Positions 544-15,862 of a DNA stretch of 64,000 nucleotides are shown here, one piece after another. Position numbers and translations under genes: made by a program. Source of the DNA: Drouetiella hepatica Uher 2000/2452 (GTDB taxonomy: Bacteria > Cyanobacteriota > Cyanobacteriia > Elainellales > Elainellaceae); the NCBI GenBank assembly GCA_019359505.1, contig JAHHHD010000021.1, positions 1-64,000 on the forward strand, written 5' to 3'. Below the pieces are notes generated by a model. That model was not told the DNA's origin and did no database searches. It worked only from the letters and a program-made list of their open reading frames with translations. Positions within the stretch are counted from its first letter, which is position 1. Every line of letters begins with the position of its first letter.

Positions 544-1041
544 ATGGCAAGAAAATCTAAAGGATTTGGCGAACTGTTGAACTCACAGCAGCGCATCAAA
601 GGACAGCAGGAGTCGATGGATAAGCTAGCCGAAAGGGTAAAACAGGGATATTTGAAAGACATCGTGGGGGGTGTGGTCAGGAATCCCAAAGGCGAAGTTA
701 AAATGTCGGAGGTGCTACAAGCCTTTGTTGAGCCTCATTTGGACTTTGCCGCGACCAAAGAGCAGCGGCAAAAATTATTTGCGATCGCCATTCTTGCCTG
801 GAATTTGGCTCTCCTTTCTGAAGAGCAACAGCAGAAAGAAATGGAGGATATCATTGCTCAAATGTCGATGGGGAAAGATCGTCAGGCAGAACAAGATATC
901 AGAGAAATCTTAGAAGAATTGACGGAGCGTAAGCGCAGGCTTTTCCCCAATCATCGGCGATACATCCTCGATTTTGATGTTCGAGAAACCCGTAATGACT
1001 TTCACCTCTCGGTCATTTCTTCACCAACGCCAAAAAATTAA
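544..1041 (+). CDS. Hypothetical protein, 165 aa
   Basis: I do not recognise this family. The protein is soluble, strongly charged and probably all-helical, with no signal peptide or membrane segment. The middle and C-terminal parts contain long charged stretches (for example EEQQQKEMEDII and ILEELTERKRRLFP) that could form a coiled coil. The ATG at 544 is the first in-frame start after the repeat stack and lies in AT-rich upstream DNA. The gene is isolated: repeats lie on both sides and the next gene downstream is a glycosyltransferase. Its uninterrupted length makes it likely real, but no function can be assigned. Confidence 0.65.
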   Translation: MARKSKGFGELLNSQQRIKGQQESMDKLAERVKQGYLKDIVGGVVRNPKGEVKMSEVLQAFVEPHLDFAATKEQRQKLFAIAILAWNLALLSEEQQQKEMEDIIAQMSMGKDRQAEQDIREILEELTERKRRLFPNHRRYILDFDVRETRNDFHLSVISSPTPKN

Positions 1042-1121
1042 AAATCATGACTTTACGCAGGCGCTACAGTTGGCTCATCAGAAAACTTTGGTGGAATGGC
1101 ACTGAGACAACAATCCGATCT

Positions 1122-1193
1122 GCCCCCCAGCCCCCAATTCTGGGGGACTTTGAATGGCTCGGAAGTCCCCCAGAATTGGGGGATTTGGGGGGC
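1122..1193. repeat. Palindromic repeat (family E), copy 1
   Basis: An imperfect inverted repeat starts GCCCCCCAGCCCCCAATTC and ends with the complementary GAATTGGGGGATTTGGGGGG. The same arms occur at 32963-33037 and inside the element at 314-466. After two of the copies the flank continues AACTGTCAACT, so the repeat unit extends past the hairpin. Confidence 0.7.
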
Positions 1194-1349
1194 GAGAAAA
1201 CTGTCAACTCAGATAGGTTCATACTTCAATTCAGCAACGCCGCAACTCTCATGATATTTGTACGTCAAAGTTGAGTAGAAATTTACTTCTGATCCCTTTC
1301 ATGACAACAATGTAGGGACAAAGAACAGGGCTTAGTGTGCGGAGTTTCC

Positions 1350-2357
1350 ATGAGTACATCAGTGTTTCCAGACGGATCAAGACAGGCGATCGCTCTTCCC
1401 TCTGCCCAAATTTCCATCGTGGTTCCGGTGTACAACGAGGTCGAGAGCCTGCCGCGCTTGATTGAGGCGATCGCTTCAACACTCCAGAACAATCGCCTTA
1501 ACTATGAAATTATTTGTGTAGACGATGGCTCCACGGACGGTTCGGCCGATCTGCTGCGGCAAATTGCAGGCGATCGCACTGACCTAAAAGCCGTGCTGCT
1601 CCGTCGCAACTATGGGCAAACGGCAGCCATGGCTGCCGGATTTCACCATGCCACAGGTCAGGTGATGATTACGCTGGATGGCGATCTACAAAACGATCCG
1701 GCAGATATCCCCAGACTTCTGGAAAAGCTAGACGAAGGCTACGACTTGGTGAGCGGCTGGCGAGTGCAGCGACAGGATGCCGCTCTGACTCGACTCCTGC
1801 CCTCCAAAATTGCCAACTGGCTCATCGCCAAGGTGACGGGCGTCAATATTCATGACTACGGCTGCTCCCTCAAAGCCTATCGATCGGAGTTGGTCATGGA
1901 CATGAACCTCTATGGGGAACTGCATCGGTTTTTACCTGCCCTGGCATTTATTGAGGGAGCCAGAATTGCTGAAATTCCGGTACAGCACCATGCGCGTAAG
2001 TTTGGGCAGAGTAAGTACGGCTTGGGGCGCACCTTCCGAGTCGTGATGGATTTATTCACCATCTTCTTCATGAAGCGATTTTTGACGCGCCCCATGCATG
2101 TTTTTGGCCTATTCGGACTGATCGCAATGCTGCTAGGAATGGCAGTTGGCGTTTACCTGACTTTCCTGAAGCTGACTCTGGGAGAAGATATTGGCAACCG
2201 TCCGCTGCTGATTTTGGCAGTCGTCCTGTTCCTAATGGGCATCCAGTTGTTGAGCTTTGGTCTGTTGGCAGAGCTTTCAATGCGGACTTATCACGAGTCG
2301 CAAAACCGCCCCATCTATCGGGTGAGGGAAGTGATTGGCTCGAAGCTAGAGCACTAG
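1350..2357 (+). CDS. GT2 glycosyltransferase, DPM1/GtrB-like, with two C-terminal membrane helices
   Basis: Family 2 glycosyltransferase of the polyprenyl-phosphate-sugar synthase type, expected to move a sugar from a nucleotide donor to a lipid phosphate at the cytoplasmic membrane. The N-terminal GT-A domain has ISIVVPVYNEVESLP, the VDDGSTDGS nucleotide site and the metal-binding LDGDLQNDP. The ending has two hydrophobic helices (starting around VFGLFGLIAMLLGM and LLILAVVLFLMGIQ), as in GtrB/DPM1-like proteins. I chose ATG 1350 (MSTSV) over the GTG at 1335. It may act in lipopolysaccharide or exopolysaccharide modification. Sugar and acceptor cannot be read from sequence, and it is transcribed towards hpt. 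Confidence 0.85.
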   Translation: MSTSVFPDGSRQAIALPSAQISIVVPVYNEVESLPRLIEAIASTLQNNRLNYEIICVDDGSTDGSADLLRQIAGDRTDLKAVLLRRNYGQTAAMAAGFHHATGQVMITLDGDLQNDPADIPRLLEKLDEGYDLVSGWRVQRQDAALTRLLPSKIANWLIAKVTGVNIHDYGCSLKAYRSELVMDMNLYGELHRFLPALAFIEGARIAEIPVQHHARKFGQSKYGLGRTFRVVMDLFTIFFMKRFLTRPMHVFGLFGLIAMLLGMAVGVYLTFLKLTLGEDIGNRPLLILAVVLFLMGIQLLSFGLLAELSMRTYHESQNRPIYRVREVIGSKLEH

Positions 2358-2401
2358 CGGCAGCTAGTGGTTTGTTGATTGTTAACTGACGTGTTGATGT
2401 A

Positions 2402-2449
2402 GATGGGTAGATGGGTGGATGGGTGGATGGGTGGATGGGTGGATGCGGG
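2402..2449. repeat. 8-bp tandem repeat, six copies
   Basis: Six consecutive octamers of the type GATGGGTG (first GATGGGTA, last GATGCGGG) lie between two convergent genes. Just downstream, ACTCATCTACTCATCTACC is partly complementary, so the array could fold back on itself. Confidence 0.75.
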
Positions 2450-2505
2450 TTCCCAATTACTCATCTACTCATCTACCCCCTCACCCGCCAACTATTAACT
2501 AACCA

Positions 2506-3036
2506 TTAGTTCTCTTCCTCGATCGCATAAACAGCACCAAGCTGGCGATATTTTTGAGCAAAGTCGGTGCCATAGCCCACGATAAATCGATCGGGGACAG
2601 CCATGCCCAAATAGTCGATCGCTACGGCAACTTTGCGGCGATCGGGTTTATCCATCAGGGCACAGAGCTTCAGCGATGCAGGTTGATAGGTCTGCAAATC
2701 TGCCAGGATTCTGGCGGTGGTGGTCCCTGTGTCAATAATGTCTTCCACGACAATCACATCTTGATGGGCGATCGCTTCTGGCCCTAAGCCCATGACTACA
2801 GAAACGGCACCTGAGCTGACGGTTGCAGTACCATAGCTCGATGCTTGAATGAATTCGATCGTCTGGATTGGAGTCTGCATGGCTCTGACCAGATCGGCAG
2901 CAAACATAAATGCACCCTTGAGCACCACCACAATCACGGGATGGCGATTGGCATAGTCTTTGTCAATATCCTGCGCCAATCGCTGGACTGCTTCAGCAAC
3001 GTCTGCGGCAGAGATGAGCAGAGTGAGAGATTCCAT
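2506..3036 (-). CDS. hpt: Hypoxanthine phosphoribosyltransferase
   Basis: Purine salvage enzyme that makes IMP (and GMP) from hypoxanthine (or guanine) and PRPP in the cytoplasm. The 176-aa length is normal for bacterial HPRT. The PRPP-binding signature VIVVEDIIDTGTT, the VVLKGAFMFAADL loop and the C-terminal DRFIVGYGTDFAQKYR segment are all present. The start ATG at 3036 gives the usual short N-terminus. The gene lies just downstream of the cysteine-repeat secreted protein on the same strand, with a short gap that may reflect co-transcription but no obvious functional link. Confidence 0.93.
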   Translation of the reverse strand: MESLTLLISAADVAEAVQRLAQDIDKDYANRHPVIVVVLKGAFMFAADLVRAMQTPIQTIEFIQASSYGTATVSSGAVSVVMGLGPEAIAHQDVIVVEDIIDTGTTTARILADLQTYQPASLKLCALMDKPDRRKVAVAIDYLGMAVPDRFIVGYGTDFAQKYRQLGAVYAIEEEN

Positions 3037-3048
3037 GATCGGCGATCG

Positions 3049-3558
3049 CTAACGGGACGTGGGGTTGCTGGCAGTTGGGGTAATGGTTCTGACCTCCCGA
3101 CAGTCCGGTACCCAGCCCTGAGTATCCTGATGGCGTGAGGTGGTAAACGCCACGTCGCCCTTATTATTCAGGCACTCGTAATAAACAGCCTGAACTTGAG
3201 GAGGCGTGCTGTCTCGGTAGCCAATTTCTCGGCAGTTGTCTAGGGCATCCGCAACCGATTCGCTGGTGGTAGTCAGGGCAATGTTGCCGTTGCCGTCATA
3301 GCACTGGTAGTAGGTGGCGCGCGCCTCTGCCTCAGAGAGGTAAGGCACTTCTCGACATCCCATCTGCCAGCCGATCGTCTCTTGGGGGTTAATGGTGACG
3401 TAGGCAATGTTGCCGCTGCGATCGTAGCAGTCGTATCGAATGATCTGCTGAGCTGAAGTCTCTGTCGTTTCAGCGTTAGCCTGCGTCGGCACAAAGCCAA
3501 TGCCTCCCGTGACGGCAAAAAGGGCGATCGACACAACAGATTTAAGATTTATAACCAT
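3049..3558 (-). CDS. Secreted protein with three cysteine-pair repeats
   Basis: Unrecognised family. A Sec-type signal peptide (IALFAVTGGIGFVPTQANA) would direct it to the periplasm or thylakoid lumen. The mature part consists of three roughly 40-residue repeats. Each has an aromatic-containing stretch before a first Cys (RYDCYDRSGNIA, YYQCYDGNGNIA, YYECLNNKGDVA) and a second Cys in a CRE motif (GCREV, NCREI, DCREV). Six cysteines in three matched pairs suggest one disulphide per repeat, which is an inference. It ends just before hpt on the same strand and is divergent from the sigma-like gene. The repeated architecture makes a binding or structural role more likely than catalysis. Confidence 0.75.
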   Translation of the reverse strand: MVINLKSVVSIALFAVTGGIGFVPTQANAETTETSAQQIIRYDCYDRSGNIAYVTINPQETIGWQMGCREVPYLSEAEARATYYQCYDGNGNIALTTTSESVADALDNCREIGYRDSTPPQVQAVYYECLNNKGDVAFTTSRHQDTQGWVPDCREVRTITPTASNPTSR

Positions 3559-3764
3559 GGGTTCCTCAAGACAGCTCTAACTTATTTTTTGGGTTTGACT
3601 TATTTTGCTGGTTTATCTAATAAAAATCCGGTCTAATTGACCTAAATCGGCACACCCTAGCCACTATTTTTACAATAGGTCGATCGCTTGTCGATGATCT
3701 GGGTTGAACATGGGACAATCATGATCTTTAATGCGCTGTTTCAGGGTTCCTCAAGGGGGGGTAA

Positions 3765-4415
3765 ATGAGTGAACTGGATATCCAACTTCGGCAGCTAGTC
3801 AAAGAAGCCTGTAGTCATCCACCCGGCAGTCCGGCACGGCAGCGGCGGCTGACTCAGGTGATCCGGCTGTCGTCGGGCAAGCTGTGGCGCGAAAGCGTTG
3901 CCTACTATCAGGATGCGGTGCAGCAGACCTGGGTGTATTTTTGCCAAAATGTCTGTGAAGCCAAAACGGGCGATCGCTATGACCCCGATCGCAGCAGCGT
4001 TTCCACCTGGCTGAATGCCTATCTGAGACGGCGGCTCCAGGACTTTTATATTGACGGGCAAAAGCAGCAGGCGACTCGTGCAACGGGCTTGGCAAGGGGA
4101 TCGCGATCGGGCGAAACAGGCGAAGTCATTGACCCGATCGATAACTTGGCTGCCCAGCCTGACGTGCCGCCTATCCTCCAGGAAGTGAAGACCTGGGCAG
4201 AATTGGATGTCACGGGCGAGCTGCAACGGGTACACATTGAAGGGTATCCTCGAATCAATTGCCAAATGCTGATTTTGCGAAGGCTGCCTCCAGAAACCGG
4301 GTGGAAAGAGCTTGCTGCCGAGCTGGGTCTGTCGGTTTCGACGCTGAGCAGCTTTTATCAGAGACAATGCTTGCCGCGTTTGCGTAAATTTGGTCAGTCG
4401 GAGGGATATCTCTAA
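3765..4415 (+). CDS. Sigma-70-like (ECF-type) factor, first gene of a CHAT-CHASE2 operon
   Basis: A 216-aa protein that reads as a divergent sigma factor. Residues about 40-95 resemble region 2 (YYQDAVQQTWVYF, then STWLNAYLRRRLQDFY). The C-terminus has a region-4-like helix-turn-helix (WKELAAELGLSVSTLSSFYQ) that would contact the -35 box. Between them is a hydrophilic linker. It starts at ATG 3765 after a G-rich stretch and is followed 27 bp later by a DUF1822 gene, then by CHAT-CHASE2 and DUF928, all on one strand. In this family context it is usually annotated as a sigma-70-family protein. That it transcribes its own operon is a guess. Confidence 0.75.
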   Translation: MSELDIQLRQLVKEACSHPPGSPARQRRLTQVIRLSSGKLWRESVAYYQDAVQQTWVYFCQNVCEAKTGDRYDPDRSSVSTWLNAYLRRRLQDFYIDGQKQQATRATGLARGSRSGETGEVIDPIDNLAAQPDVPPILQEVKTWAELDVTGELQRVHIEGYPRINCQMLILRRLPPETGWKELAAELGLSVSTLSSFYQRQCLPRLRKFGQSEGYL

Positions 4416-4442
4416 AGCACTGGAGGACAAAGAGCTTTTACC

Positions 4443-5390
4443 ATGACCTACACTACCTCGTCTGCACTACCGCTTCCCATTACTCGTCGAGCGATCGCCC
4501 TGGCAGACCAGTTTGCCCACCGACATCCCGCCGAAAAAGCCGCTCAAGTCCGGCTGAATACGCTGGCAGTCTGCGTGATGAACGACTACTTGCAAATGAT
4601 GGGCATTGCCGCCGATCCCTCAGGCAGCGATAGCTGGAATCCGGTGAGCCAGCTTTGTGCCGATGTTGCCGATCTAGAGGTTTTGGGCGTGGGCAAGCTG
4701 GAGTGTCGTCCTCTCTCAGTCAACAGCATTGGTCAGACGAGCGATGTCTGCAACGTGCCGCCCGAAGTGTGGGAAGACCGGATTGGCTATGTCGTGGTGC
4801 AAATTAATGAAGCAGCTCAAGAGGCAAGTCTTCTAGGCTTCACAGAACGGGCGATCGAAGCACTGCCCCTGAGCCAATTGCGATCGCCCGAAGCGCTGCT
4901 GGATCATCTCGATCGGTTGATGCATCCGGTGACTGCCGCCTCAAGAGTGGCGAACCTCAGCCAATGGCTACAGAATATCTTTGAAGAGGGCTGGCAGACG
5001 GTGGATGCCTTGCTCAATCCTCCTAACCTTGCCTACGGCTTTCGGGGCATAGACTCTGCGGCTTCCCAGGATCGTTCGCAAAGCCTCCGCCGCGCTAAGT
5101 TGATTGACCTCAACATTCAAATGCCTAACCCTGTAGCGCTCGTGGTGGAACTGACTCCAGACGCTGAACAGACTGCCATTTGCCTTCAGGTTCATCCCAC
5201 AGGTACGACCTATTTGCCTCCAGATTTGCGGCTGGCTGTGCTGGATGAGGCGGGAGCAATCTTTTTAGAAGCTCAGTCTCGCGGCACAGACAACTACATT
5301 CAGCTTCAGTTTAGCGGTCACTCTGGCGAGACTTTTCAGGTACAGGTGGCGATCGCCGATGCCAGCGTCATAGAATCCTTCGTGATTTAG
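4443..5390 (+). CDS. DUF1822 family protein
   Basis: A 315-aa soluble protein of the cyanobacterial DUF1822 family, function unknown. Signs of the family are the N-terminal LPITRRAIALADQFA and NTLAVCVMNDYLQMMGI, and the C-terminal beta-rich half (ALVVELTPDAEQTAICLQVHP, LPPDLRLAVLDEAG) ending in FQVQVAIADASVIESFVI. There is no signal peptide or membrane segment. It lies 27 bp after the sigma-like gene and about 46 bp before the CHAT-CHASE2 gene, so co-transcription is very likely. A role as partner or inhibitor of its neighbours is only inferred from linkage. Confidence 0.85.
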   Translation: MTYTTSSALPLPITRRAIALADQFAHRHPAEKAAQVRLNTLAVCVMNDYLQMMGIAADPSGSDSWNPVSQLCADVADLEVLGVGKLECRPLSVNSIGQTSDVCNVPPEVWEDRIGYVVVQINEAAQEASLLGFTERAIEALPLSQLRSPEALLDHLDRLMHPVTAASRVANLSQWLQNIFEEGWQTVDALLNPPNLAYGFRGIDSAASQDRSQSLRRAKLIDLNIQMPNPVALVVELTPDAEQTAICLQVHPTGTTYLPPDLRLAVLDEAGAIFLEAQSRGTDNYIQLQFSGHSGETFQVQVAIADASVIESFVI

Positions 5391-5436
5391 CCCAGTCGTT
5401 TAGGTGATTCTATCCAAAAGCCGTGAGGAAGCCTCG

Positions 5437-7974
5437 ATGGCAGGTAAATTAGCTGTCCTAAAATTTGGTGAGGGGAGCCTTGAGACGGGCTTTCCGGTAG
5501 CGCTGCAAATCAGTGAAGAGCAAGTTAGCGAAGAGCAAATCAGGCAGCAGGATACGCTGCGCCCTGGCTTAGCCTACTATCCTCTAGCCGAAGTGGCAGG
5601 AAAGCTGCCCCCTGCGCCCGATCTGCTGCGCTACTATCAGCACTGGCAGTCAACCTATCGGCAGTTGGGAACCCAAACTCGTCTAGAAGCCCCCAAAGCG
5701 CAGGTGACAAACGTCTCCATGCTAACGGACTGTCAAAGCGCTGCCGAGGCGCTGAGCGATCGCTTCAACACCTGGCTGCGTTCAGAGTCGTTTCGTCCTT
5801 TACGAGAAAAATGGCTAGAGCTGCTGTCCCCCCAGGATTCAATTCGGGTGATTTTGCAAACTGACGATTCGCTGCTGCAACGGCTGCCCTGGCAAACCTG
5901 GGAGTTGAGCGATCGCTACACCCAATCTGAATTTGCCCTCAGCCTGCCCAGCTACGAGCAGATTGGCAAAACCCCTAACGTCAAAGATCGGCTAAAAATT
6001 CTTGCTATTTTGGGCAACAGTCAGGGCATAGATATCCAGAGCGATCGGGCTTTGCTGGAACAATTGCCTGATGCCGACATTCATTTTCTTGTAGAGCCTC
6101 AGCGTCAAGAACTCACCGATCAGCTCTGGGCGCAGCCTTGGGACATTCTGTTTTTCGCAGGGCATAGCAAAAGCGACTTGATCCCTCCTCCCCTATCAAC
6201 TCCTGACTCCCGCCTCCCAACCCCCGACTTTCCCACGCCCGACTCTCCCTCTGCCGACCTCGGTCGCATCTTCATCAACGCCACCGACAGCCTCACCATT
6301 CGTCAACTCCGGTACGGACTCCGCCAAGCCGTCGAGCGCGGACTGAAGCTGGCAATTTTCAACTCTTGCGATGGTCTGGGTCTGGCGCGCAACTTAGCAG
6401 ATTTGCAGATTCCCCAGATGATTGTCATGCGTGAACCTGTGCCCGATCGCGTGGCGCAGGAGTTCCTTAAGTCATTTCTCTCAAGCTTTTCTCAGGGCGA
6501 ACCGTTCTACCAATCCGTGCGTCAGGCGCGAGAACGTCTACAAGGTTTGGAAGATCAGTTTCCTTGCGCGACCTGGCTGCCCATCATTTGTCAGAATCCG
6601 GCAGAGGCTCCACCGACCTGGAAGCAGTTAATGGGGCAAAAGTTCACTGGGCAAAAGTTCGCTGGGCAAAAGTTCATTGGGCAGGATGTCTCGCTGGCAT
6701 CCGAGGGGACGATCGCCCCGCTTCAAGACTCGTCCAGAGCCGCACCCCAAAAATCAACCTCGCCCGTCTTCCGGCATTTACGCCAAGCCTCAAAAGTGCT
6801 GATCTCCGGTCTGCTGGTGACGGCAGCGCTGACGGGTCTGCGTTATGCCGGATTTTTGCAGCCCTCAGAGCTACAGGCATTTGATGCATTGATGCGGCTG
6901 CGTCCTGCCGAGTCTGAAGATTCCCGTCTGCTGATTGTCACCATTAACGATCGGGAAAAACAGCAGTATGGCGGGGTATCGCCCAACGGCGATCGCATTT
7001 CATTAACCGATCGCTTCCTCGATCAGCTTCTGACGCGGCTAAATCAGGCTCAGCCCAGCGTCATCGGGCTAGATCTGTATCGAGACTTTCCGGCAGAGCC
7101 TGCCGTAGCTCAACAGTTTCGGCAGCAGCAGATTGTTTCAGTCTGCAAAGCCCAGTATCCCGGTGAGGTAGGCATTGCTCCTGCCCCTGATTCTCCGCCC
7201 AATCAGGTGGGCTTTAGCGACTTTGTTGCCGATAGCGATGACAAGCTCCGCCGCCACCTGTTGGCAATGACCACGCCCTATATTGATCCCGATGCGCCTT
7301 GTACCGCTGCCTATGCGTTTAATCTCCAAATTGCCTCACGCTATCTGTTGACGCAACGCCTGCCCATGCTAGGCGCTCCCGATACCGATCTGCGATTTGG
7401 CAAAACTGTCTTGCGGCGGCTCAAAGCCCGGACGAGCGGCTACCAACCTGTTGACGATCGCGGCAACCAAATTTTGCTGAACTATCGGTCTACGCCGTTC
7501 CTCAGCCTATCGCTCACGGATCTGCTGTCTGGCAAAGTCAACCCCAGCATCATCAAAGATCGGATTGTGCTAGTGGGTGTAGCGGCTGAAAGCAGCACAG
7601 ATTTCTGGGATACGCCGATCGATCCGCATATGCCGGGAGTCGTGGCGCAAGCCCACATGGTGAGCCAAATCGTCAACGCTGCGTTGGAGGGGCGATCGCT
7701 GCTCTGGGTCTGGTCATGGCAAGAGATTCCCTGGATTTTGGGCTGGGCGCTGTGGGGTAGTCTTCTAGGCTGGCGACTGCGATCGCCTCTGCGTCTGAGC
7801 CTAGCTATTTCTCTGAGTACGCTAGCGATCTGCGGCATCTGCTGGGGGGTGCTGCTTCAGGGTGGCTGGATTCCGTTGATTCCTGCCCTGCTGGCACTGG
7901 CGATCGCCAGCATCATGCCCCTTTTCATTCGCTTTCCTCTCAAACTTGCCCGGAATCGCCATTTCTCCTCTTGA
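5437..7974 (+). CDS. CHAT protease domain fused to a CHASE2 sensor, membrane-anchored
   Basis: A two-part protein of 845 aa from ATG 5437. The GTG at 5404 would add 11 residues. Residues about 90-400 form a CHAT (caspase-like) domain with His243 in FFAGHSKSD and Cys311 in IFNSCDGLGLA, the expected catalytic dyad. Residues about 395-410 hold a threefold GQKF hexapeptide repeat. After one hydrophobic stretch near VLISGLLVTAALTGL comes a CHASE2 domain, normally an extracytoplasmic sensor (LRPAESEDSRLLIVTINDRE, FLDQLLTRLNQAQPSVIGLD, IVLVGVAAESSTDFWDTPID). The C-terminus has three membrane helices, with no kinase or cyclase attached. The layout suggests an envelope signal controlling a cytoplasmic protease; the substrate is unknown. 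Confidence 0.88.
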   Translation: MAGKLAVLKFGEGSLETGFPVALQISEEQVSEEQIRQQDTLRPGLAYYPLAEVAGKLPPAPDLLRYYQHWQSTYRQLGTQTRLEAPKAQVTNVSMLTDCQSAAEALSDRFNTWLRSESFRPLREKWLELLSPQDSIRVILQTDDSLLQRLPWQTWELSDRYTQSEFALSLPSYEQIGKTPNVKDRLKILAILGNSQGIDIQSDRALLEQLPDADIHFLVEPQRQELTDQLWAQPWDILFFAGHSKSDLIPPPLSTPDSRLPTPDFPTPDSPSADLGRIFINATDSLTIRQLRYGLRQAVERGLKLAIFNSCDGLGLARNLADLQIPQMIVMREPVPDRVAQEFLKSFLSSFSQGEPFYQSVRQARERLQGLEDQFPCATWLPIICQNPAEAPPTWKQLMGQKFTGQKFAGQKFIGQDVSLASEGTIAPLQDSSRAAPQKSTSPVFRHLRQASKVLISGLLVTAALTGLRYAGFLQPSELQAFDALMRLRPAESEDSRLLIVTINDREKQQYGGVSPNGDRISLTDRFLDQLLTRLNQAQPSVIGLDLYRDFPAEPAVAQQFRQQQIVSVCKAQYPGEVGIAPAPDSPPNQVGFSDFVADSDDKLRRHLLAMTTPYIDPDAPCTAAYAFNLQIASRYLLTQRLPMLGAPDTDLRFGKTVLRRLKARTSGYQPVDDRGNQILLNYRSTPFLSLSLTDLLSGKVNPSIIKDRIVLVGVAAESSTDFWDTPIDPHMPGVVAQAHMVSQIVNAALEGRSLLWVWSWQEIPWILGWALWGSLLGWRLRSPLRLSLAISLSTLAICGICWGVLLQGGWIPLIPALLALAIASIMPLFIRFPLKLARNRHFSS

Positions 7975-8003
7975 AATACATTATATTACACCGTAATACA
8001 GCC

Positions 8004-8744
8004 ATGAATATCTCCATCGCGCTGCTTGCCCCCCTCTTCTCTCTTTCCTTGCTCACTCCATTGACCTTTCCCGCCCTGGCTCAGGATGCGCCAGCTACAG
8101 GCATTCAGAGTAGAACGACCCACATCAAGTTTGAGCCACCCGCCCTAGGCAATGCGCCAGGTGGACGATCGCGGGGCGGAGCAAGCCGGGGCGAATGTCC
8201 TGCCGCAACGTTGCCCTTAACGGCGATCGTGCCTACGGTTAACGGAGGGGTGGGAGGGCTAACCACTGCCGATCAGCCTAGCTTCTGGTTTTATGTCCCT
8301 TATGCTTTGAATGGCGATCGCTCCGCAGAGTTTGTCTTGCTGGATGATCAAAATAGATATATTTATCAAACCACGCTGGTGAATGGCGAAAGTGATGCGA
8401 TCGGGATAACGCAGGTGACTTTACCCGCCACAGTAGTGCTGGAAAAGGACAGGCTTTACCAATGGGTGTTTATGGTGAATTGTGAGATTGACAATCCCAT
8501 CTTCACGCGGGGCAGCATCCGTAAGGTGACGATCGATCCGGTGCTAAGCACCAAAATTCAACAGGCTGAAGCCTTAGAGCAAGTCAGACTTTATGCTGAA
8601 AACGGCATTTGGTTTGAGGCGCTAAGCACCCTGGCAGAATTAAAGACTGCCAAACCGGGAGATGCGGCGATCGCCCTGGAATGGAAGAGCCTGCTGCAAT
8701 CAGTTGATTTGACAGATATAGCGGATAGCCCGTTCGTGCCCTAG
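8004..8744 (+). CDS. DUF928 family secreted protein
   Basis: A protein of the cyanobacterial DUF928 family, function unknown. ATG 8004 gives a clear signal peptide (ISIALLAPLFSLSLLT, cleavage likely after ALA), so it is exported. The TTG at 7971 would overlap the CHAT-CHASE2 stop and spoil the signal. The domain includes CPAATLPLTAIVP, a proline/aromatic strand SFWFYVPYAL, and the helical tail ALEQVRLYAENGIWFEALST. It begins 29 bp after the CHAT-CHASE2 gene. Being exported, it could be the partner of the extracytoplasmic CHASE2 domain, which is inference from position and topology. Confidence 0.85.
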   Translation: MNISIALLAPLFSLSLLTPLTFPALAQDAPATGIQSRTTHIKFEPPALGNAPGGRSRGGASRGECPAATLPLTAIVPTVNGGVGGLTTADQPSFWFYVPYALNGDRSAEFVLLDDQNRYIYQTTLVNGESDAIGITQVTLPATVVLEKDRLYQWVFMVNCEIDNPIFTRGSIRKVTIDPVLSTKIQQAEALEQVRLYAENGIWFEALSTLAELKTAKPGDAAIALEWKSLLQSVDLTDIADSPFVP

Positions 8745-8822
8745 TTGACTAACAAAACTCAAGCCGTCTTCACCGTTCGGCTGAGCGCCCTTTGACCTGA
8801 GCGCTCAGATCGAAAGCTCGCG

Positions 8823-9392
8823 TTAAGCCGATCGGCGCTGCTCTTCAGGGCTACTTTTTGCAAATTCTTCGACCATCTTGCGATTGAAAGCAGGGATATC
8901 TCCCGGATTACGACTTGTAACCAAACCGCGATCCACCACCACTTCTTGATCAACCCAATTTGCCCCTGCGTTCTTTAAATCAGTTTTGAGAGAGGGCCAG
9001 GATGTTAAGGTACGTCCCTTCACCACCTCTGCTTCAATCAAAGTCCAGGAACCGTGGCAGATAGCAGCTACAGGTTTCCCAGCTTCAAAGAAAGCTTTTA
9101 TGAACTGCACAGCTTGAGGCTGGATGCGGAGTTGATCGGGGTTGGCAACGCCACCTGGCAACATTAACGCATCATAATCGCTGGGATTTGCCTGTTCTAG
9201 AGATATATCTACTGGGAACCGATCGCCTTTATCAAAGTGATTCCAGCCTTCAACGCTGTCACTCTTAGGCGAAACAATATGGACTTGGGCACCTGCTGCT
9301 TCGAGCGCCTGTTTGGGTTGGGTCAGTTCTACCTGCTCGAAGCCGTCAGTTGCCAAGATTGCAACTTTGCGATTGCTCAATATACTTGTCAT
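8823..9392 (-). CDS. DJ-1/PfpI family protein (type 1 glutamine amidotransferase-like)
   Basis: A 189-aa protein of the DJ-1/PfpI superfamily, related to Pfp1/YhbO-type enzymes described as proteases, deglycases or stress proteins. The nucleophile elbow AAICHGSW places the reactive Cys at residue 112 followed by His113. The glutamate-rich N-terminal motif ILATDGFEQVEL and the LMLPGGVANPDQLR strand are typical. There is no signal peptide, so it acts in the cytoplasm. It stands alone, convergent with the DUF928 gene and divergent from sat. The exact activity (general stress repair or peptidase) cannot be decided from sequence. Confidence 0.88.
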   Translation of the reverse strand: MTSILSNRKVAILATDGFEQVELTQPKQALEAAGAQVHIVSPKSDSVEGWNHFDKGDRFPVDISLEQANPSDYDALMLPGGVANPDQLRIQPQAVQFIKAFFEAGKPVAAICHGSWTLIEAEVVKGRTLTSWPSLKTDLKNAGANWVDQEVVVDRGLVTSRNPGDIPAFNRKMVEEFAKSSPEEQRRSA

Positions 9393-9600
9393 AGCTCAAA
9401 TCTTTTCTGTGATGGTTGGTTTAGATTTGAGCCTAACGCAAGCTCGATTGAGCCTTAATCTGTCATCGGTTAGGAATATGATCTCAACTTTGGTTAAGCT
9501 TGATTGATTTTGATTAAACGATGGCACTCATACCCGCGATCGTCCCTCTCTGGTAGGATCATTTCTGGCAGGCAATTCTAAAGAGAAACTAAAAATCGCC

Positions 9601-10782
9601 ATGACTCAGCCCAGCATCGCGCCTCACGGTGGAACGCTCATTAATCGTATTTGTACGCCAGAACAACGCACCGAATTTCTGGACAAGGGTGAGCACTTAC
9701 CCAGGGTGCAGCTTGATGGGCGAGCTTTCTCGGATCTAGAGCTAATTGCGATCGGCGGATTTAGCCCGTTGACCGGGTTTATGGGACAGAAGGACTACGA
9801 TCGCGTTGTCAACGAAATGCACCTAGAAAACGGATTGCCTTGGGCGATTCCTGTGACGCTGTCTGTCACGGAGGAAATTGCCGCTCCCCTCAAAGAAGGC
9901 AGTTTGGTTCGGCTGGATGACTTTAGCGGTCGATTTGTGGGCGTACTGGAGCTGACCGAAAAATACACCTACGATAAGGTACATGAAGCGCTGTTGGTGT
10001 ATCGCACTAATGAGGAAAAGCACCCTGGCGTGAGGGTTGTTTATACTCAAGGCGCGATCAACTTGGCAGGCAATGTCTGGCTGCTGCAACGGGATACTGA
10101 CGTGCGCTTTCCGCTCTACCAGATTGATCCGGCAGAATCGCGTCAGTTGTTTCGAGACAAAGGCTGGAAATCGATCGTGGGTTTTCAAACTCGAAACCCT
10201 ATTCACCGCGCCCATGAATACATCATTAAATGTGCCCTCGAAACCGTGGATGGTTTATTTCTGCATCCGCTGGTGGGAGCCACCAAAGAAGATGATATTC
10301 CGGCAGATGTGCGAATGCGCTGCTATGAAATTATGCTGGAACACTACTTTCCCAAAGATCGGGTGATTCTCGCCATTAATCCTGCCGCCATGCGCTACGC
10401 GGGTCCTCGTGAAGCCATCTTCCACGCCCTCCTGCGCAAAAACTATGGCTGCACCCACTTCATTGTCGGGCGCGATCACGCAGGTGTGGGAGACTACTAC
10501 GGCACCTACGATGCTCAATACATTTTCGATGAGTTTGCTCCGGGGGAACTCGGCATAATGCCGCTGAAGTTTGAACATGCTTTTTACTGTCTGCGCACGA
10601 ACGGCATGGCAACCAGTAAAACCAGCCCTAGCACTAAGGACGAGCGGATTCACCTATCGGGCACGAAGGTCAGAGAGATGTTGCGTCGAGGTGAGCTGCC
10701 GCCCCCAGAGTTTTCCCGTCCTGAGGTCGCGGCTGAACTGACCCAAGCCATGCAGGAGAAAGAGTTGAGCTATGAAATTTAG
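9601..10782 (+). CDS. sat: Sulfate adenylyltransferase (ATP sulfurylase)
   Basis: The first enzyme of sulfate assimilation, forming adenosine 5'-phosphosulfate from sulfate and ATP. The 393-aa length fits the bacterial homo-oligomeric Sat. The nucleotide-binding motif [16 protein letters not shown], the second motif [15 protein letters not shown] and [18 protein letters not shown] are all intact, so the enzyme should be active. Start ATG 9601 ([11 protein letters not shown]) is the usual family start. The last codons (SYEI and stop) merge into a 14-bp tandem repeat that continues past the gene. No other sulfate genes are next to it. Confidence 0.95.
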
Positions 10783-10823
10783 AGCGTGAAATTTAGAGCG
10801 TGAAATTTAGAGCGTGAAATTTA
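10767..10823. repeat. 14-bp tandem repeat at the 3' end of sat
   Basis: Three exact copies of GAGCGTGAAATTTA (10782-10823) follow one variant copy, GAGCTATGAAATTTA, that encodes the last residues and stop of sat. The repeat probably expanded from the coding end. Confidence 0.75.
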
Positions 10824-10850
10824 GGACGCTGAGGATTGCTCCCGGTGTGG

Positions 10851-13800
10851 CTAATCCAATGGCGGCCAATCCAGTTGGGGCTGATCTGGTTGGGTCAGTT
10901 GAATCAGCGTTTCGAGCTGGAAGTGATGCACTAGATAGGCGATCGCCTCCTTTAACTCAGCCTGGGATTCTGGAATTTGCTCCAGCAGATGGGCGATCGC
11001 TTTGGAGTCGGCGCTACGAGCTGCGAAGTTGAGTTCGGTGATCCAGTGGCTAGACATAGCGCTGAGGTTGGGCAATAGGATATTAGACTTTGCTTGCGGG
11101 GCGGCAGGCTGATTGCTCATCAAATGGGTTGAGTCAGCAGACTGGGTGTCAGTGGATGCCAGATCTGCTCTCAGAACCTCTAGGTCTCCTGAAACTGCCA
11201 GCTTAAGGGGAATGGCAAACTGAAACACGCTGCCCTGCTGCCACTGGCTGCTGACCGTCAGATCACCGCCCATGATCTGGACGAACTGACGGCACATAGG
11301 CAACCCTAAACCTGTTCCCTGACGCGATCGCCGCCCTGATTCTGACTGTGTGAAGCATTCAAAAATCAGACACAGCTCATGAGCTGCAATGCCGATGCCA
11401 GTGTCTATAATCTCGAAGCAAATTTTTGAGCGATCGTCGTCCCACTTTACCGCAATCGTCACTTCTCCTTGGTCAGTAAACTTAATGGCGTTATCAATCA
11501 AATTAATTAGGACTTGCCGCAGCTTTTGGGCATCAGTGCGGATCATTTGCGGTAGATCGGCATCTTGACGACACACCAGCCCAATGCCCTTACTGCGCGC
11601 CCTCAAGCTAAACATCCCCTCAATATTGCCCAGCAATAGCTGTAAATCGCAGGACTGTTCTTCGAGATGAACATATCCCGATTCAATTTTGGCGATCGAT
11701 AAAACTTCGTTAATTAAATTCAGAAGATGTGCGCCGTTGCGGTTGATGGTTTCAAGCTGCTGCTGCTGTTGGGAGGTGAGGCGATCGCACGCCATGAGCT
11801 GCGAAAAGCCCAGGATGGCATTCAGCGGTGTCCGCAGTTCATGGCTCATGTTTGCTAGAAAAACACTTTTTGCCTTATTTGCAGCTTCCGCTGCATCCTT
11901 GGCTTGTCGTAACGCTTCTTCAGTGTGTTTGAGGTTGGTGATGTCTGTTGAGGCGCCAATAATCCCCTGTACCTGTCCCTCTTGATCAATAAAGGGGCTA
12001 ACAATGACTTGATACCAGCGCAATTCACCCTGAAGATTTCTAATTCCTTGAGTTGGGATAAATCGACTCTGGCGCGTTTCCATCACATCCTGATTAATGG
12101 CTAAAAACTCTTCCGCCTGCGCCGGAGGCAAGATAAATTCATCAGTCAACTTACCTAAAGCTTCTTCAACAGCGCAGCCATAGATCGCTGCGCCTGCCTG
12201 ATTAATTGCAAGAATTCGCCCTTCTCGATCTTTCACAAAAATGCAGTTGGGAACTGCATCAATCACGGTATGGAGAAAAGTTCTTTGCGCCTCCAGATCG
12301 CTGGCAGCCTGCTTACGTTCAGCATCACTTCGCTTGGCTTCGCTAATGTCACGGACGTTTGCCAAAATGGTATCTTCTCCGCTCAGCATAATTCGCCGGA
12401 GCGCTACTTCGACATCAAATATCGAGTTGTCGTGAGGTCGTCTGGCTTTCCACTCAAAGCAAATGGTTTCTCCCGTCAAGACGTGACGCCAAGTTTCAGG
12501 TAAGGTTTCTAGAGAGTTGGTATCCGCAGAATAATCTTGCTGAATTGAGAGCTGCAACGCTTCTTCTCGCGAAACCTGAAACAGTTCTAACATGCGATCG
12601 TTGACATCTAAGATCGTGCCATCTGCTTGATGCAGAAAAATTGCGTCATGGGCATTGTTAAAGATGGTGCGCAAGTTTCGCTCTGAAACTTGTAGTGCTT
12701 CCTCAGCACGTTTGCGATCGGCTTCTTCTCGCTTGCGTTTGCTAACATCTTCTCCCTCCAGCAGCAGCATCGTCACGACACCTGCCTCATCCCAAATGGG
12801 GCGAAGCGAAAAGTCAAACGTGACTGTTTTTCCCAAACCTGCTTTTCCTAGACCTGCTTTGTCCAGACCTGTCTGACTCTGCCGTGAGATATCGACATCA
12901 TAAATATCAATTTCATAGCGAACAAATTCTGCTTGAGCTGCCTTGGCAATGGCTTGTTCCAGAGGCTCCTGTACAACAGCATCAGACTCCCACCAGGGTG
13001 TCTTCCAGAGCAGCTTGCCCACAACCTGCGATCGCGTCAATTTGCCAAAGTTAAGCGCCGTTTGGTTGATCTCTAACAGCGTGCCATCTGGTTTCAACAG
13101 ACCGACAAACCGCAAGGTTTGGTTGAAAATGGCGCGGAATTTTCCCTCACTTTCACGCAAGGCTCGCTCAACCTGCTTACGCTCGGTAATCTCTTGCTCA
13201 AGAACTGTATTGGTCTGCGCCAGTTCAGCAGTGCGCGCCGCCACTTGGGTTGCTAACGTCCAGTTATAGTTTGACAGAATCTTTTCGGATTGCCGTCGCC
13301 GGGTAATATCTTGAAAGACTGTAATGACGTAGAGCACTTTCCCGGCTTTGTCAAAAACGGGACTCGATCGCCCTTCCACTAAAATATTTTCTCCATCTTC
13401 ACGGTGAATTTCCAGGTCATCTACTATGACAGCTTGTCCTTGCAGTGCAAGAACAGAAGGCAGCATCTCAGGAGGGTACAGGCGATCGGTTCCTGCAATA
13501 TAGAGATTGTAGGCAGCAGATTGCTCTTCTAGAGGCATGATGGAGGTTGCTTTTTTGCCTAAGACTTGTATTGCCGTAGGGTTCATATAGACAACGGCAC
13601 CTGTTGCATCGATCGTCCCTACGCCAATGGGCAAATTCTCGATTAAGCTGGCAAACTTTCGTTCGCTTTTCTCAAATCCGCTGAATAGAGTATTGAGCTG
13701 GATTGCCATGTTGTTGAACGATCGCGCCAGTTCTGCCACTTCGCGGGTGGAGTGGAACGTGACAATGCGATCGAAATTGCCTCTGGCAATCGCTTTTGCT

Positions 13801-14924
13801 ATTTCATTGAGCTGCAATAGCGGTCGCGTGAGCCATCGCGCTGTGAGCAGACTGGTACCCAAGGTCAGCAACAGCGCCAAACTGCACATCGCCACGATTG
13901 TGCGCATGTTCGGGTTTGTTTGAGTTGTGAAGTCTGACCCTGGTACGATCGCCACAACCCACCAGTTCAACCCATGGGCATCCTGCCAGGGCGTAATTTG
14001 AACAAACTGACGCTGACCGTCTAGATCAAATTCAAATTGTTTGCGGGTTGCGAAATTTTGTAGCGCCAGTAAATGCCGAGCCGCTGACCGAATCAGCAGA
14101 TCGTCGGAGTCAGACGCGAACAGGCGTTGCTGCTGACTTCGGCTGTAGATCTCGTGATCACCCGAACTTGCCACCAGCCGACCGTTAGATTCTAGGATAA
14201 AAACCCGCCCCGACTGACCGATTTGGATCTGCTCCAGAAAGGTGCTGAGGTCATCTAAACGCAAACCCACTGCTGCAACGCCCACGCGCTTGCCCGATAG
14301 GCGAAGGGGATGTAGCGCAGTTAGGGTCAGATCAGGAGTGCCTGCGCCCTCACCAATAGAACTCCAGATAGCTCTATCTTGGGCGATCGCCTGATGCCCA
14401 AGAGCATGGGAACTTTTCACACTGCCACCCGAATGAGGGGCGCTATCCGACACGCGATCAACCCTATATTCTGCTGGCTGCCCTGGCTGAGTGGGTCGCC
14501 GTACCACACCGACAAGTTGACCTGCTTCGCGGTCTAGATAAATAGAGTTGATGACGCTAAAAGCCTGAATGCGCTTGAGCAAATAGCCATCCAGAGCTTT
14601 TAAGTCTTGAGACTGGAGGTCAACAATACCCATCTCTACATCATCTGCTACCAGTCGAGCGATCGCGGGCGGGGCAGCAGTGTAAGCCTTCAGATGGTGC
14701 TCAACGCGATCGCCCACTTGCTCTAAGAGCTGATCTGCTAAACCCTGAACGGTTTGCTGCTGGTTGCGATGAGTCCAGTAGCCCGCCAGCCCCACAAAAA
14801 TGACAATTGGCGCCATGCAGGAGCCAACCAGCACAAAGCGAAGAGACAGTTTCCCAGAAAGTTGGTCGATCAGTCTGCTGACCAAGCTGCCAGATTTAGA
14901 GCGCTGAGGGGCGGGTGAATTCAT
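10851..14924 (-). CDS. Membrane sensor histidine kinase: Cache, HAMP, four PAS domains, HisKA and HATPase
   Basis: A large sensor kinase (about 1357 aa). TM helix 1 (FVLVGSCMAPIVIFVGLAGY) and TM helix 2 (AMCSLALLLTLGTSLL) bracket a Cache-type extracellular sensor. Next come HAMP, four PAS domains (FASLIENLPIGVGTI; FRAIFNQTLRFVGLL; LRTIFNNAHDAIFL; FLHTVIDAVPNCIFV) and HisKA with the phospho-accepting His in FLANMSHELRTPLNAIL. The ATPase has its N box (LIDNAIKFTD), G1 (DTGIGIA) and G2 (GTGLGLP). There is no receiver domain, so its partner is likely the REC-GGDEF protein encoded just upstream. ATG 14924 overlaps that gene's TGA stop as ATGA, pointing to coupled translation. A GLGKAGLGK-type repeat interrupts one PAS. 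The signal sensed is unknown. Confidence 0.93.
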   Translation of the reverse strand: MNSPAPQRSKSGSLVSRLIDQLSGKLSLRFVLVGSCMAPIVIFVGLAGYWTHRNQQQTVQGLADQLLEQVGDRVEHHLKAYTAAPPAIARLVADDVEMGIVDLQSQDLKALDGYLLKRIQAFSVINSIYLDREAGQLVGVVRRPTQPGQPAEYRVDRVSDSAPHSGGSVKSSHALGHQAIAQDRAIWSSIGEGAGTPDLTLTALHPLRLSGKRVGVAAVGLRLDDLSTFLEQIQIGQSGRVFILESNGRLVASSGDHEIYSRSQQQRLFASDSDDLLIRSAARHLLALQNFATRKQFEFDLDGQRQFVQITPWQDAHGLNWWVVAIVPGSDFTTQTNPNMRTIVAMCSLALLLTLGTSLLTARWLTRPLLQLNEIAKAIARGNFDRIVTFHSTREVAELARSFNNMAIQLNTLFSGFEKSERKFASLIENLPIGVGTIDATGAVVYMNPTAIQVLGKKATSIMPLEEQSAAYNLYIAGTDRLYPPEMLPSVLALQGQAVIVDDLEIHREDGENILVEGRSSPVFDKAGKVLYVITVFQDITRRRQSEKILSNYNWTLATQVAARTAELAQTNTVLEQEITERKQVERALRESEGKFRAIFNQTLRFVGLLKPDGTLLEINQTALNFGKLTRSQVVGKLLWKTPWWESDAVVQEPLEQAIAKAAQAEFVRYEIDIYDVDISRQSQTGLDKAGLGKAGLGKTVTFDFSLRPIWDEAGVVTMLLLEGEDVSKRKREEADRKRAEEALQVSERNLRTIFNNAHDAIFLHQADGTILDVNDRMLELFQVSREEALQLSIQQDYSADTNSLETLPETWRHVLTGETICFEWKARRPHDNSIFDVEVALRRIMLSGEDTILANVRDISEAKRSDAERKQAASDLEAQRTFLHTVIDAVPNCIFVKDREGRILAINQAGAAIYGCAVEEALGKLTDEFILPPAQAEEFLAINQDVMETRQSRFIPTQGIRNLQGELRWYQVIVSPFIDQEGQVQGIIGASTDITNLKHTEEALRQAKDAAEAANKAKSVFLANMSHELRTPLNAILGFSQLMACDRLTSQQQQQLETINRNGAHLLNLINEVLSIAKIESGYVHLEEQSCDLQLLLGNIEGMFSLRARSKGIGLVCRQDADLPQMIRTDAQKLRQVLINLIDNAIKFTDQGEVTIAVKWDDDRSKICFEIIDTGIGIAAHELCLIFECFTQSESGRRSRQGTGLGLPMCRQFVQIMGGDLTVSSQWQQGSVFQFAIPLKLAVSGDLEVLRADLASTDTQSADSTHLMSNQPAAPQAKSNILLPNLSAMSSHWITELNFAARSADSKAIAHLLEQIPESQAELKEAIAYLVHHFQLETLIQLTQPDQPQLDWPPLD

Positions 14925-15862
14925 GGATCTATCCACGAATGAGCTATGGCAAAGCGATCGCGTCCTGCCTGTTTCGCACGATAGAGCGCTTGGTCAGCCG
15001 CTGCGATCAGATCGTCAGGCGATCGATCGAGCTGCGGAACAATAGTTGCAATGCCCATGCTGAGGGTCAGATAGGAACTCACGCTAGAGGTGGCATGAGG
15101 GATCTGAATCTGGAGCAACTGAGCCTGAATTCTTTGAGCTAACTCGATCGCGCCTTCGAGCGGAGTTTTGGGTAGGGTCAGGGCAAATTCTTCTCCTCCG
15201 TAGCGAGAGGCTAGATCGGCTGGGCGCTTGGCACAGGCTTCTAGAACGACACCTACCCGCTGCAAACAGTCGTCTCCAGTCGGGTGCCCATAGGTGTCGT
15301 TGTACTGTTTAAAGAAATCAATATCACACAAAATCAGCGCTAGGGGCTGCTGTTCGCGTGCCATTCTGCGCCATTCTTGCTCCAGATGCTCATTGAAACA
15401 GCGACGATTTGCTAACTGCGTTAGACCATCCAGATTCACCAATCGCTTCAGCTCCTGGTTAGCTTGTGCGAGCTGCTGCTGTAATTGGTGCAGGGTTAGA
15501 TGGGTTTTTACCCTCGCCAAGACTTCAGCCGTATGGAAAGGCTTAGTAATGTAATCGACTCCCCCAACTTCAAAGGCTCTGATTTTGTCGGAAATATCAT
15601 CCAGGGCGCTCAAAAAGATGACGGGGATATCGCAAGTTTTCAGATTAGATTTGAGCTGACAGCAAACCTCATAGCCATCTAGATCGGGCATACAAATATC
15701 TAGCAAAATCAGCTCTGGTGGCAATGTCTCAGCAGCCATAAGCGCCATCCGCCCGTTGATAACGGTACGCGCTTCATAGCCTTGCTGTACCAGAATGCCA
15801 GAGAGGAAACGCAGGTTATCGGGCGTGTCATCCACAATTAGGATATTGCCTTCGCAGGTCAT
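14921..15862 (-). CDS. Response regulator diguanylate cyclase (REC-GGDEF)
   Basis: A receiver domain drives synthesis of the second messenger cyclic di-GMP. REC has the acidic pocket ILIVDDTPDN, phospho-acceptor Asp in LILLDICMPDLDGYE and the conserved Lys in YITKPF. After a coiled linker (LQQQLAQANQELKRL) comes the cyclase, with active-site GGEEF in SRYGGEEFALTL. An RPAD inhibitory I-site lies five residues before it, so product feedback is expected. I chose ATG 15862 (MTCEGNILIVDD); an upstream in-frame start at 15931 would add 23 residues. The stop overlaps the start of the histidine kinase, its likely activator. Confidence 0.93.
   Translation of the reverse strand: MTCEGNILIVDDTPDNLRFLSGILVQQGYEARTVINGRMALMAAETLPPELILLDICMPDLDGYEVCCQLKSNLKTCDIPVIFLSALDDISDKIRAFEVGGVDYITKPFHTAEVLARVKTHLTLHQLQQQLAQANQELKRLVNLDGLTQLANRRCFNEHLEQEWRRMAREQQPLALILCDIDFFKQYNDTYGHPTGDDCLQRVGVVLEACAKRPADLASRYGGEEFALTLPKTPLEGAIELAQRIQAQLLQIQIPHATSSVSSYLTLSMGIATIVPQLDRSPDDLIAAADQALYRAKQAGRDRFAIAHSWIDP

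Follow-up and report, generated by a model that had tools for sequence, protein, structure and literature searches.

A candidate three-tier relay from a CHASE2 receptor to a sigma-like factor in a cyanobacterial CHAT cassette

How might a protease-type domain fused to a membrane receptor reach the transcription machinery? The question is raised by four adjacent genes in the window analysed here, a stretch of 64,000 nucleotides from Drouetiella hepatica Uher 2000/2452 (contig JAHHHD010000021.1), which encode a short sigma-70-like protein, a DUF1822 protein, a CHAT caspase-fold domain joined to the receptor domain CHASE2, and a DUF928 protein. We propose that this cassette is a three-tier relay, a reading that in our judgement could as easily prove wrong as right, in which (i) exported DUF928 would act with the extracytoplasmic CHASE2 as a sensor and modulate it; (ii) CHASE2 would switch, across the membrane, the cytoplasmic CHAT protease of the same chain; and (iii) CHAT would act on DUF1822, whose N-terminal half (N-half) would hold the sigma-like factor inactive until it is freed. 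The proposal is built on the gene content, the conserved linkage, an intact CHAT dyad, the restriction of DUF928 to CHASE2-type cassettes and the pairing of DUF1822 with sigma factors where CHAT is not found. The features in question are:

3765 to 4415, + strand: short sigma-70-like factor with degenerate regions 2 and 4, 216 amino acids (aa)
4443 to 5390, + strand: DUF1822 protein with an alpha/beta N-half and an immunoglobulin-like (Ig-like) C-terminal sandwich, 315 aa; proposed anti-sigma-type regulator
5437 to 7974, + strand: CHAT-CHASE2 protein from ATG 5437, with an alternative in-frame GTG start at 5404; putative EACC2-type N-region, CHAT at residues 113-380, membrane CHASE2 receptor at residues 462-775
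6163 to 6165, + strand: codon of His243 (motif FFAGHS), position computed from ATG 5437
6367 to 6369, + strand: codon of Cys311 (motif FNSCDG), position computed from ATG 5437
8004 to 8744, + strand: DUF928 protein from ATG 8004, with a possible TTG start at 7971; proposed extracytoplasmic CHASE2 partner

An initial annotation of this DNA had described four close genes on one strand, and the open reading frames (ORFs) were confirmed on the + strand, separated by 27, then 13 or 46, then -4 or 29 bases according to the starts chosen; its dyad positions are also right when numbered from ATG 5437. Pfam placed DUF1822 (E=1e-68), CHAT (1.5e-15) together with CHASE2 (1e-59) in a single protein, and DUF928 (6e-51), all above cut-off, in agreement with three of the four assignments. 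A locus search from the window found 2 loci only, and a genome profile search was used instead: among the matches listed, DUF1822 was matched in 33 of 36 genomes of the window's family and in 107 of 146 genomes of the phylum, with five copies in the window's own genome. From these, 160 regions were taken around mostly full-length DUF1822 (short or partial rows were mostly left out) and their neighbours were tabulated with profiles built from the window proteins; five regions (L053, L123-L126) gave no DUF1822 by the window profile. The counted set comprises 159 distinct DUF1822 ORFs of at least 250 aa, and its fractions are conditional on DUF1822, by which the regions were picked. A CHAT gene lies directly 3' of DUF1822 in 107 and a short sigma-like gene directly 5' in 85, and the initial annotation's supposition that the four genes travel together is borne out by 38 complete cassettes, the window included. 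In the reverse direction, DUF1822 stands directly upstream of 25 of the 33 cassette-family CHAT genes in eight genomes, which is more than chance.

Of 100 full-length CHAT proteins (first 520 residues aligned), 99 retain both H243 and C311, comprising 70/70 with a CHASE2-type C-terminus and 29/30 of the other type; the exception, L162, carries CHAT at its C-terminal end, outside the aligned part, and has the Cys motif. The dyad is thus conserved among relatives, as the initial annotation had expected, which implies catalysis, with proteolysis as the predicted activity. The N-terminal residues G13, G18, W70 and W113 are likewise conserved, in 90 to 98 of 100 CHAT proteins. The retention of the dyad argues against a non-proteolytic switch, in which CHAT would be a docking module and DUF1822 a co-activator or adaptor through which RNA polymerase would acquire the degenerate sigma-like protein, without cleavage. 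Such a protein may indeed need a helper, and DUF1822, with the invariant residues E87 and C88 in its N-half and an Ig-like C-terminal fold, would suit protein binding; we nevertheless consider this scheme rather improbable. At the C-terminus the proteins vary: among 107 CHAT cassettes, CHASE2 occurs in 73 and another module in 34, and a scan of ten proteins yielded nSTAND1-WD40, Peripla_BP_6, PBP_like_2, HEAT (below cut-off), pentapeptide and TPR modules. A sister receptor in the window's own genome (L093) has a Peripla_BP_6 ectodomain. In the window protein a hydrophobic stretch follows CHASE2 at residues 785-830 and the segment expected near residues 457-475 falls below the threshold; we infer the membrane topology of the relay, of which hydropathy shows a part only, and place the CHASE2 ectodomain at about residues 476-765. 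Its profile gave nothing useful against PDB sequences.

CHASE2 is a widespread sensor, its signal being stated as unknown in the accessible part of a 2016 account (PMC5192318), and its candidate partner is DUF928. Of 68 CHASE2-type cassettes, 61 have a DUF928 gene directly 3' of CHAT, versus 0 of 29 of the other type (Fisher p 2e-18, uncorrected for kinship; 10 of the 107 cassettes end too early to be judged). Its occurrence behind CHASE2-type receptors, and behind none of the 29 cassettes with another input, makes DUF928 more likely a sensor partner than a substrate. The pairing extends beyond the cassette. In eight genomes, where the count omits 3/62 DUF928 and 10/82 CHASE2 rows as weak or partial and 29 DUF1822 rows were entered, a CHASE2 gene lies within 3 kb on the same strand for 34 of the 59 DUF928 genes counted; DUF928 is present at 12/12 CHASE2 genes that have an entered DUF1822 row nearby and at 21/60 other CHASE2 genes. 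With rotated positions in four genomes, the observed 2/4, 6/6, 4/6 and 1/2 compare with per-genome means between 0.0015 and 0.032. Five CHASE2 genes with DUF928 outside the DUF1822 setting were scanned and carry GGDEF, histidine kinase plus receiver, three TIR stretches, a C14 caspase and EAD10. In an alternative reading DUF928 would lie outside the sensor and be an exported target or passenger, as operon product or pathway substrate. The export-type N-terminus, the 25 of 59 copies in the eight genomes without a same-strand CHASE2 gene within 3 kb and the Synechocystis DUF928 protein sll1891, cited as acid-stress responsive in the accessible literature, would fit such a role, which we regard as very improbable in view of its absence from the other-type cassettes, despite the DUF1822 and CHAT that they share with the CHASE2 type, and of its place beside CHASE2 receptors with unrelated outputs.

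Structure prediction points the same way. The DUF928 protein has a hydrophobic N-terminus at residues 5-17 (predicted export) and invariant Cys65 and Cys160, and its model (predicted local distance difference test, pLDDT, 87.4) shows an Ig-like sandwich followed by four C-terminal helices. A DUF928 profile had no sequence match at E<=1 in the PDB. The best structural match of the model is the C-terminal domain of MtxA (PDB 4z29; Foldseek E 2.6e-5), with Z 9.5 over 148 aligned positions (residues 71-242) and a root-mean-square deviation of 3.8, spanning sandwich and helices; the runner-up (Z 8.6, formally tied) covers the sandwich only. According to PMC4439547, the MtxA protein carries a signal peptide when synthesised, and a gene for a CHASE2-adenylate cyclase comes directly after mtxA. 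Like DUF928, it is an exported Ig-like and helical domain encoded beside a CHASE2 receptor; unlike the DUF928 cassette, it comes from a magnetotactic bacterium and its receptor has a cyclase as output. The MtxA neighbourhood is independent support for the DUF928-CHASE2 pairing. Two papers also record a single CHASE2 plus DUF928 neighbourhood in Nostoc punctiforme (PMC5587647) and, in Burkholderia, a gene for an exported LysM-FecR protein preceding a CHASE2 kinase gene (PMC5192318).

What the CHASE2-DUF928 branch might watch is indicated by its neighbours. Genes for TPR-CHAT proteins or two-partner secretion exoproteins lie near 42 of 64 CHASE2-type loci (of at least 9 kb), near 3 of 30 loci with another C-terminus and near 7 of 42 loci without CHAT; these families were called by profiles made for this analysis, one example of each being confirmed by Pfam, and the TPR-CHAT proteins mostly have a hydrophobic N-terminus. 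This adjacency is why we suggest that the branch watches the secreted surface. The link is a statistical one, since the window cassette has no TPR-CHAT or exoprotein neighbour in the first 14 kb. A broader version of the relay is possible, though we put it forward only tentatively: proteins of the DUF928/MtxA fold would be general CHASE2 partners, forming one sensor unit for kinase, diguanylate cyclase, TIR, caspase, EAD10 and CHAT outputs and reporting, in cyanobacteria, on two-partner-secreted surface proteins, while the window CHAT would cut DUF1822 as a member of an unrecognised anti-sigma family whose N-half alone would hold sigma at the membrane in a distant CHAT-less lineage described below. 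A dedicated exported partner would make the CHASE2 signal question directly testable, and the initial annotation's envelope sensor with a protease-type output is supported.

The output tier rests on the company that DUF1822 keeps. A sigma-type gene precedes it in 137 of 159 cases, 85 of the short and 52 of the long type, the latter first found as a single-linkage cluster and then recounted by profile; in the remaining 22 either neither type lies upstream or the sequence ends. The long genes encode proteins of about 400 aa; a single representative was scored and proved to be a sigma-70 factor above cut-off (101.7 vs 42.9 bits). For the short type, a profile of 45 relatives of the window protein gave 8 PDB matches at E<=1, of which the top five are extracytoplasmic function (ECF) sigma factors, at a weak E of 0.019-0.33, and the other three are unrelated; Sigma70_r4_2 matches (E<=0.05) occur in 17 of these 45. 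In nine of those 22 cases proteins of about 482 aa precede DUF1822 (e.g. L193:2373-3821), and one, when scanned, had no Pfam or NCBIfam match; they are perhaps a third, unrecognised sigma-like type.

A distant lineage strengthens the case for DUF1822. Family f24 lies outside the window's class and has genomes near 2 Mb; we took the best 13 loci of 56 genomes with a DUF1822 match, among the matches listed, and L216, cut before the next gene, left 12. Here the first ~170 positions of DUF1822, its N-half, head proteins of 929-1294 aa, with weak scores (40-48 bits, cut-off 25); for L217 a whole-protein Pfam scan gave no family at E<=0.001, yet the genome search scored its DUF1822 stretch at 44.1 bits. 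At 12/12 loci the next gene encodes a 187-198 aa protein with Sigma70_r4 above cut-off, and all six of these proteins that were scanned are TIGR02937 sigma factors above cut-off. A strong hydrophobic segment lies ~180-225 residues from the C-terminus in 12/12 of the DUF1822-N proteins, and a CHAT protein was found in 0 of the 12 genomes. A TonB_C assignment of their C-terminus is weak in the three proteins scanned: TonB_2 exceeds its cut-off by 0.3 bits in L213, falls below it in L215 and gives nothing in L217. Anti-sigma factors of the FecR type are membrane proteins under regulated proteolysis, and the f24 proteins share the single-pass-like layout of membrane anti-sigma factors; the arrangement is as expected for such a factor and would assign sigma handling to the DUF1822 N-half. 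The window DUF1822 differs in that no hydrophobic segment was found in it and in that its receptor would be a separate protein with a caspase-like domain. The proposal of the initial annotation that DUF1822 regulates a sigma factor gains strength because f24, where no CHAT was found, has its N-half at the start of a membrane protein whose neighbour is a genuine sigma factor, and we regard DUF1822 as a likely anti-sigma-type regulator of the sigma-like factor, judged from gene order and domain content. Direct contacts between the products, inhibition rather than activation of the sigma-like factor, and cleavage of DUF1822 are further parts of the relay that we infer. As an observation apart, the sigma gene of f24 (L213-L215, L217-L225) is followed in 12/12 by a gene whose conserved product begins with a zinc-ribbon-like stretch of the MKCPxCK type.

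For the window DUF1822, the one family member modelled, AlphaFold2 gave a model with pLDDT 89.4 and a predicted template modelling score of 0.65: the N-half is alpha/beta, residues 197-208 form a linker of low confidence and the C-terminal part is the Ig-like sandwich, the whole being mostly strands with few helices. Its profile had no sequence match among PDB chains at E<=1, and the fold search, which barely covers the N-half, returned generic Ig-like sandwiches only, the highest Z being 7.8 and almost every match lying within residues 188-315. The sensor domain of the anti-sigma factor RsgI4 (Z 6.4) was one among many ties and was given no weight.

Several results weigh against the relay as proposed. 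The window sigma-like protein itself reaches only E=0.003 with Sigma70_r2 of Pfam and E=1e-4 with TIGR02937, both under the curated cut-offs; the initial annotation's sigma-70-like label draws indirect support from the family profile and the region 4 matches of relatives, and from the clear sigma factors beside DUF1822 in other loci (the long-type representative and f24). Upstream of the sigma gene no shared ECF-type motif was found, the region being alignable in the closest kin only. A rapidly built tree for 103 CHAT domains implies 10 or more changes of the C-terminus, and after correction by this tree the DUF928-CHASE2 association comes down to 4 supported independent pairs, 3.4 in the same direction on average and 0.0 in the opposite one (p 0.25), 4 being too few for significance; counting unsupported branches gives 9 pairs. 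R201, which is near-invariant and lies in the low-confidence DUF1822 linker, was considered as the CHAT cleavage site and rejected as not CHAT-specific: among the 34 rows that lack both CHAT and the short sigma, 94% have R at position 201, against 100% (43 rows), 93% (29) and 62% (27) in the CHAT-linked groups, and since the presence of CHAT makes little difference to its conservation, this residue lends cleavage no support. In addition, 36 sigma-DUF1822 pairs (12 short-sigma, 24 long-sigma) lack a downstream CHAT gene, and for another 6 the sequence stops before this can be judged. Five genomes with a single DUF1822, four without adjacent CHAT and one cut by a contig end, were searched for the cassette CHAT family: one gave no match and four gave weak ones (E 2e-8 or worse; a control genome with the cassette, E 6e-50), and the protease is therefore not a universal input.

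Most of the relay has already been predicted. The accessible part of an eLife 2021 study (PMC8195603) describes EACC2-caspase proteins which, like the window protein, join a constant N-terminal module and a caspase fold to a variable C-terminus, CHASE2 being one of its forms; most of those without TRADD-N are encoded next to ECF sigma and DUF1822 genes. Because sigma, DUF1822, caspase fold and CHASE2 are reported there together, the initial annotation's claim of an unknown arrangement falls, the more so as Craspase provides a tested precedent for CHAT, inhibitor and sigma factor. DUF928 is absent from the accessible main text of that study, the supplements lying outside the comparison. It treats DUF1822 as a TPR protein, a naming that our model, alpha/beta plus Ig-like with no helical-repeat fold, does not bear out, and it proposes autoprocessing plus a transcriptional output, in contrast to the action on DUF1822 suggested here. 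What is new is the DUF928-CHASE2 pairing, with DUF928 as the outermost partner, the DUF1822 N-half beside sigma in a CHAT-less lineage, which makes DUF1822 the likely sigma controller, and a DUF1822 model that is not TPR. A search of the literature for DUF1822, DUF928, EACC2 and CHASE2 with CHAT, outside which most subscription papers lay, found no experimental work on the cassette.

Autoprocessing leads to a rival account, a conflict or immunity system in which CHAT would cut its own chain on sensing an invader or stress, the released part and sigma would act, and DUF1822 would be a scaffold. Beyond the autopeptidase activation proposed in the available text of PMC8195603, this account draws on the wide swapping of the C-terminal modules listed above, periplasmic binding proteins among them, and on DUF928-CHASE2 feeding TIR, caspase and EAD10 proteins too. 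It is opposed by PADLOC, which had no match for the four cassette proteins and, among seven neighbours (544 to 14936), a sole, weak match to a histidine kinase; by the secreted-protein genes that lie near CHASE2-type cassettes (nearness to defence genes was outside the survey); and by the pairing of DUF1822 with sigma factors where CHAT was not found. We consider it unlikely.

The closest tested parallel to the relay is Craspase. As set out in PMC10028731, an ECF sigma factor (CASP-sigma) is bound by Csx30 and thereby blocked, and the CHAT protease Csx29 (TPR-CHAT) cuts Csx30, which relieves the inhibition; in the window, too, a predicted CHAT protease, an inhibitor (proposed for DUF1822) and a putative ECF-type sigma factor are encoded together. 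The switch differs, being an RNA-guided Cas7-11 complex in Craspase and a fused membrane receptor in the window. Neither Cas7-11/gRAMP nor Csx30 was found by PADLOC among the cassette proteins or the seven neighbours, and the cassette may therefore work like Craspase without being a member. RseA and RsiW, as outlined in the same source, resemble the proposal in that an envelope signal is passed to a sigma factor by regulated proteolysis of a membrane anti-sigma factor. If the relay is correct, sigma-factor control by a caspase-like protease would have a second example, one that lies outside CRISPR and is driven by a membrane receptor, and roles could be suggested for DUF1822 and DUF928, both still named as domains of unknown function.

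Some CHASE2-DUF928 loci merit separate description. At L203:2617-11719, a receptor has three TIR stretches fused to CHASE2, and DUF928 and a protein bearing a two-partner-secretion-type motif come after it. L198:4114-9267, which belongs to the genome of the window, holds EAD10-CHASE2 and DUF928 in this order, followed on the opposite strand by a gene for a 911-aa CHAT protein. A gene on the - strand (L205:7235-8542), which we take from its unscored sequence to be a likely transposase, occupies the place expected for sigma and DUF1822, upstream of a shortened CHAT-CHASE2 gene with DUF928. At L204:3478-9394, a Peptidase_C14 caspase-CHASE2 protein occurs with DUF928 and an 895-aa CHAT protein; it resembles the Trichodesmium metacaspase-CHASE2 protein described in the accessible part of PMC2853523.

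In the window itself, promoter (5 vs 3.7) and terminator (1 vs 5.4) scans were near or below chance. The CHAT-CHASE2 protein has a weak NCBIfam match to HetF (E 0.026). HetF is a CHAT protease acting on PatU3, for which the literature search gave no confirmation. Divergent to the cassette, positions 3049-3558 on the - strand encode a small protein with an export-type N-terminus, similar Cys-containing stretches and a weak DUF4124 match.

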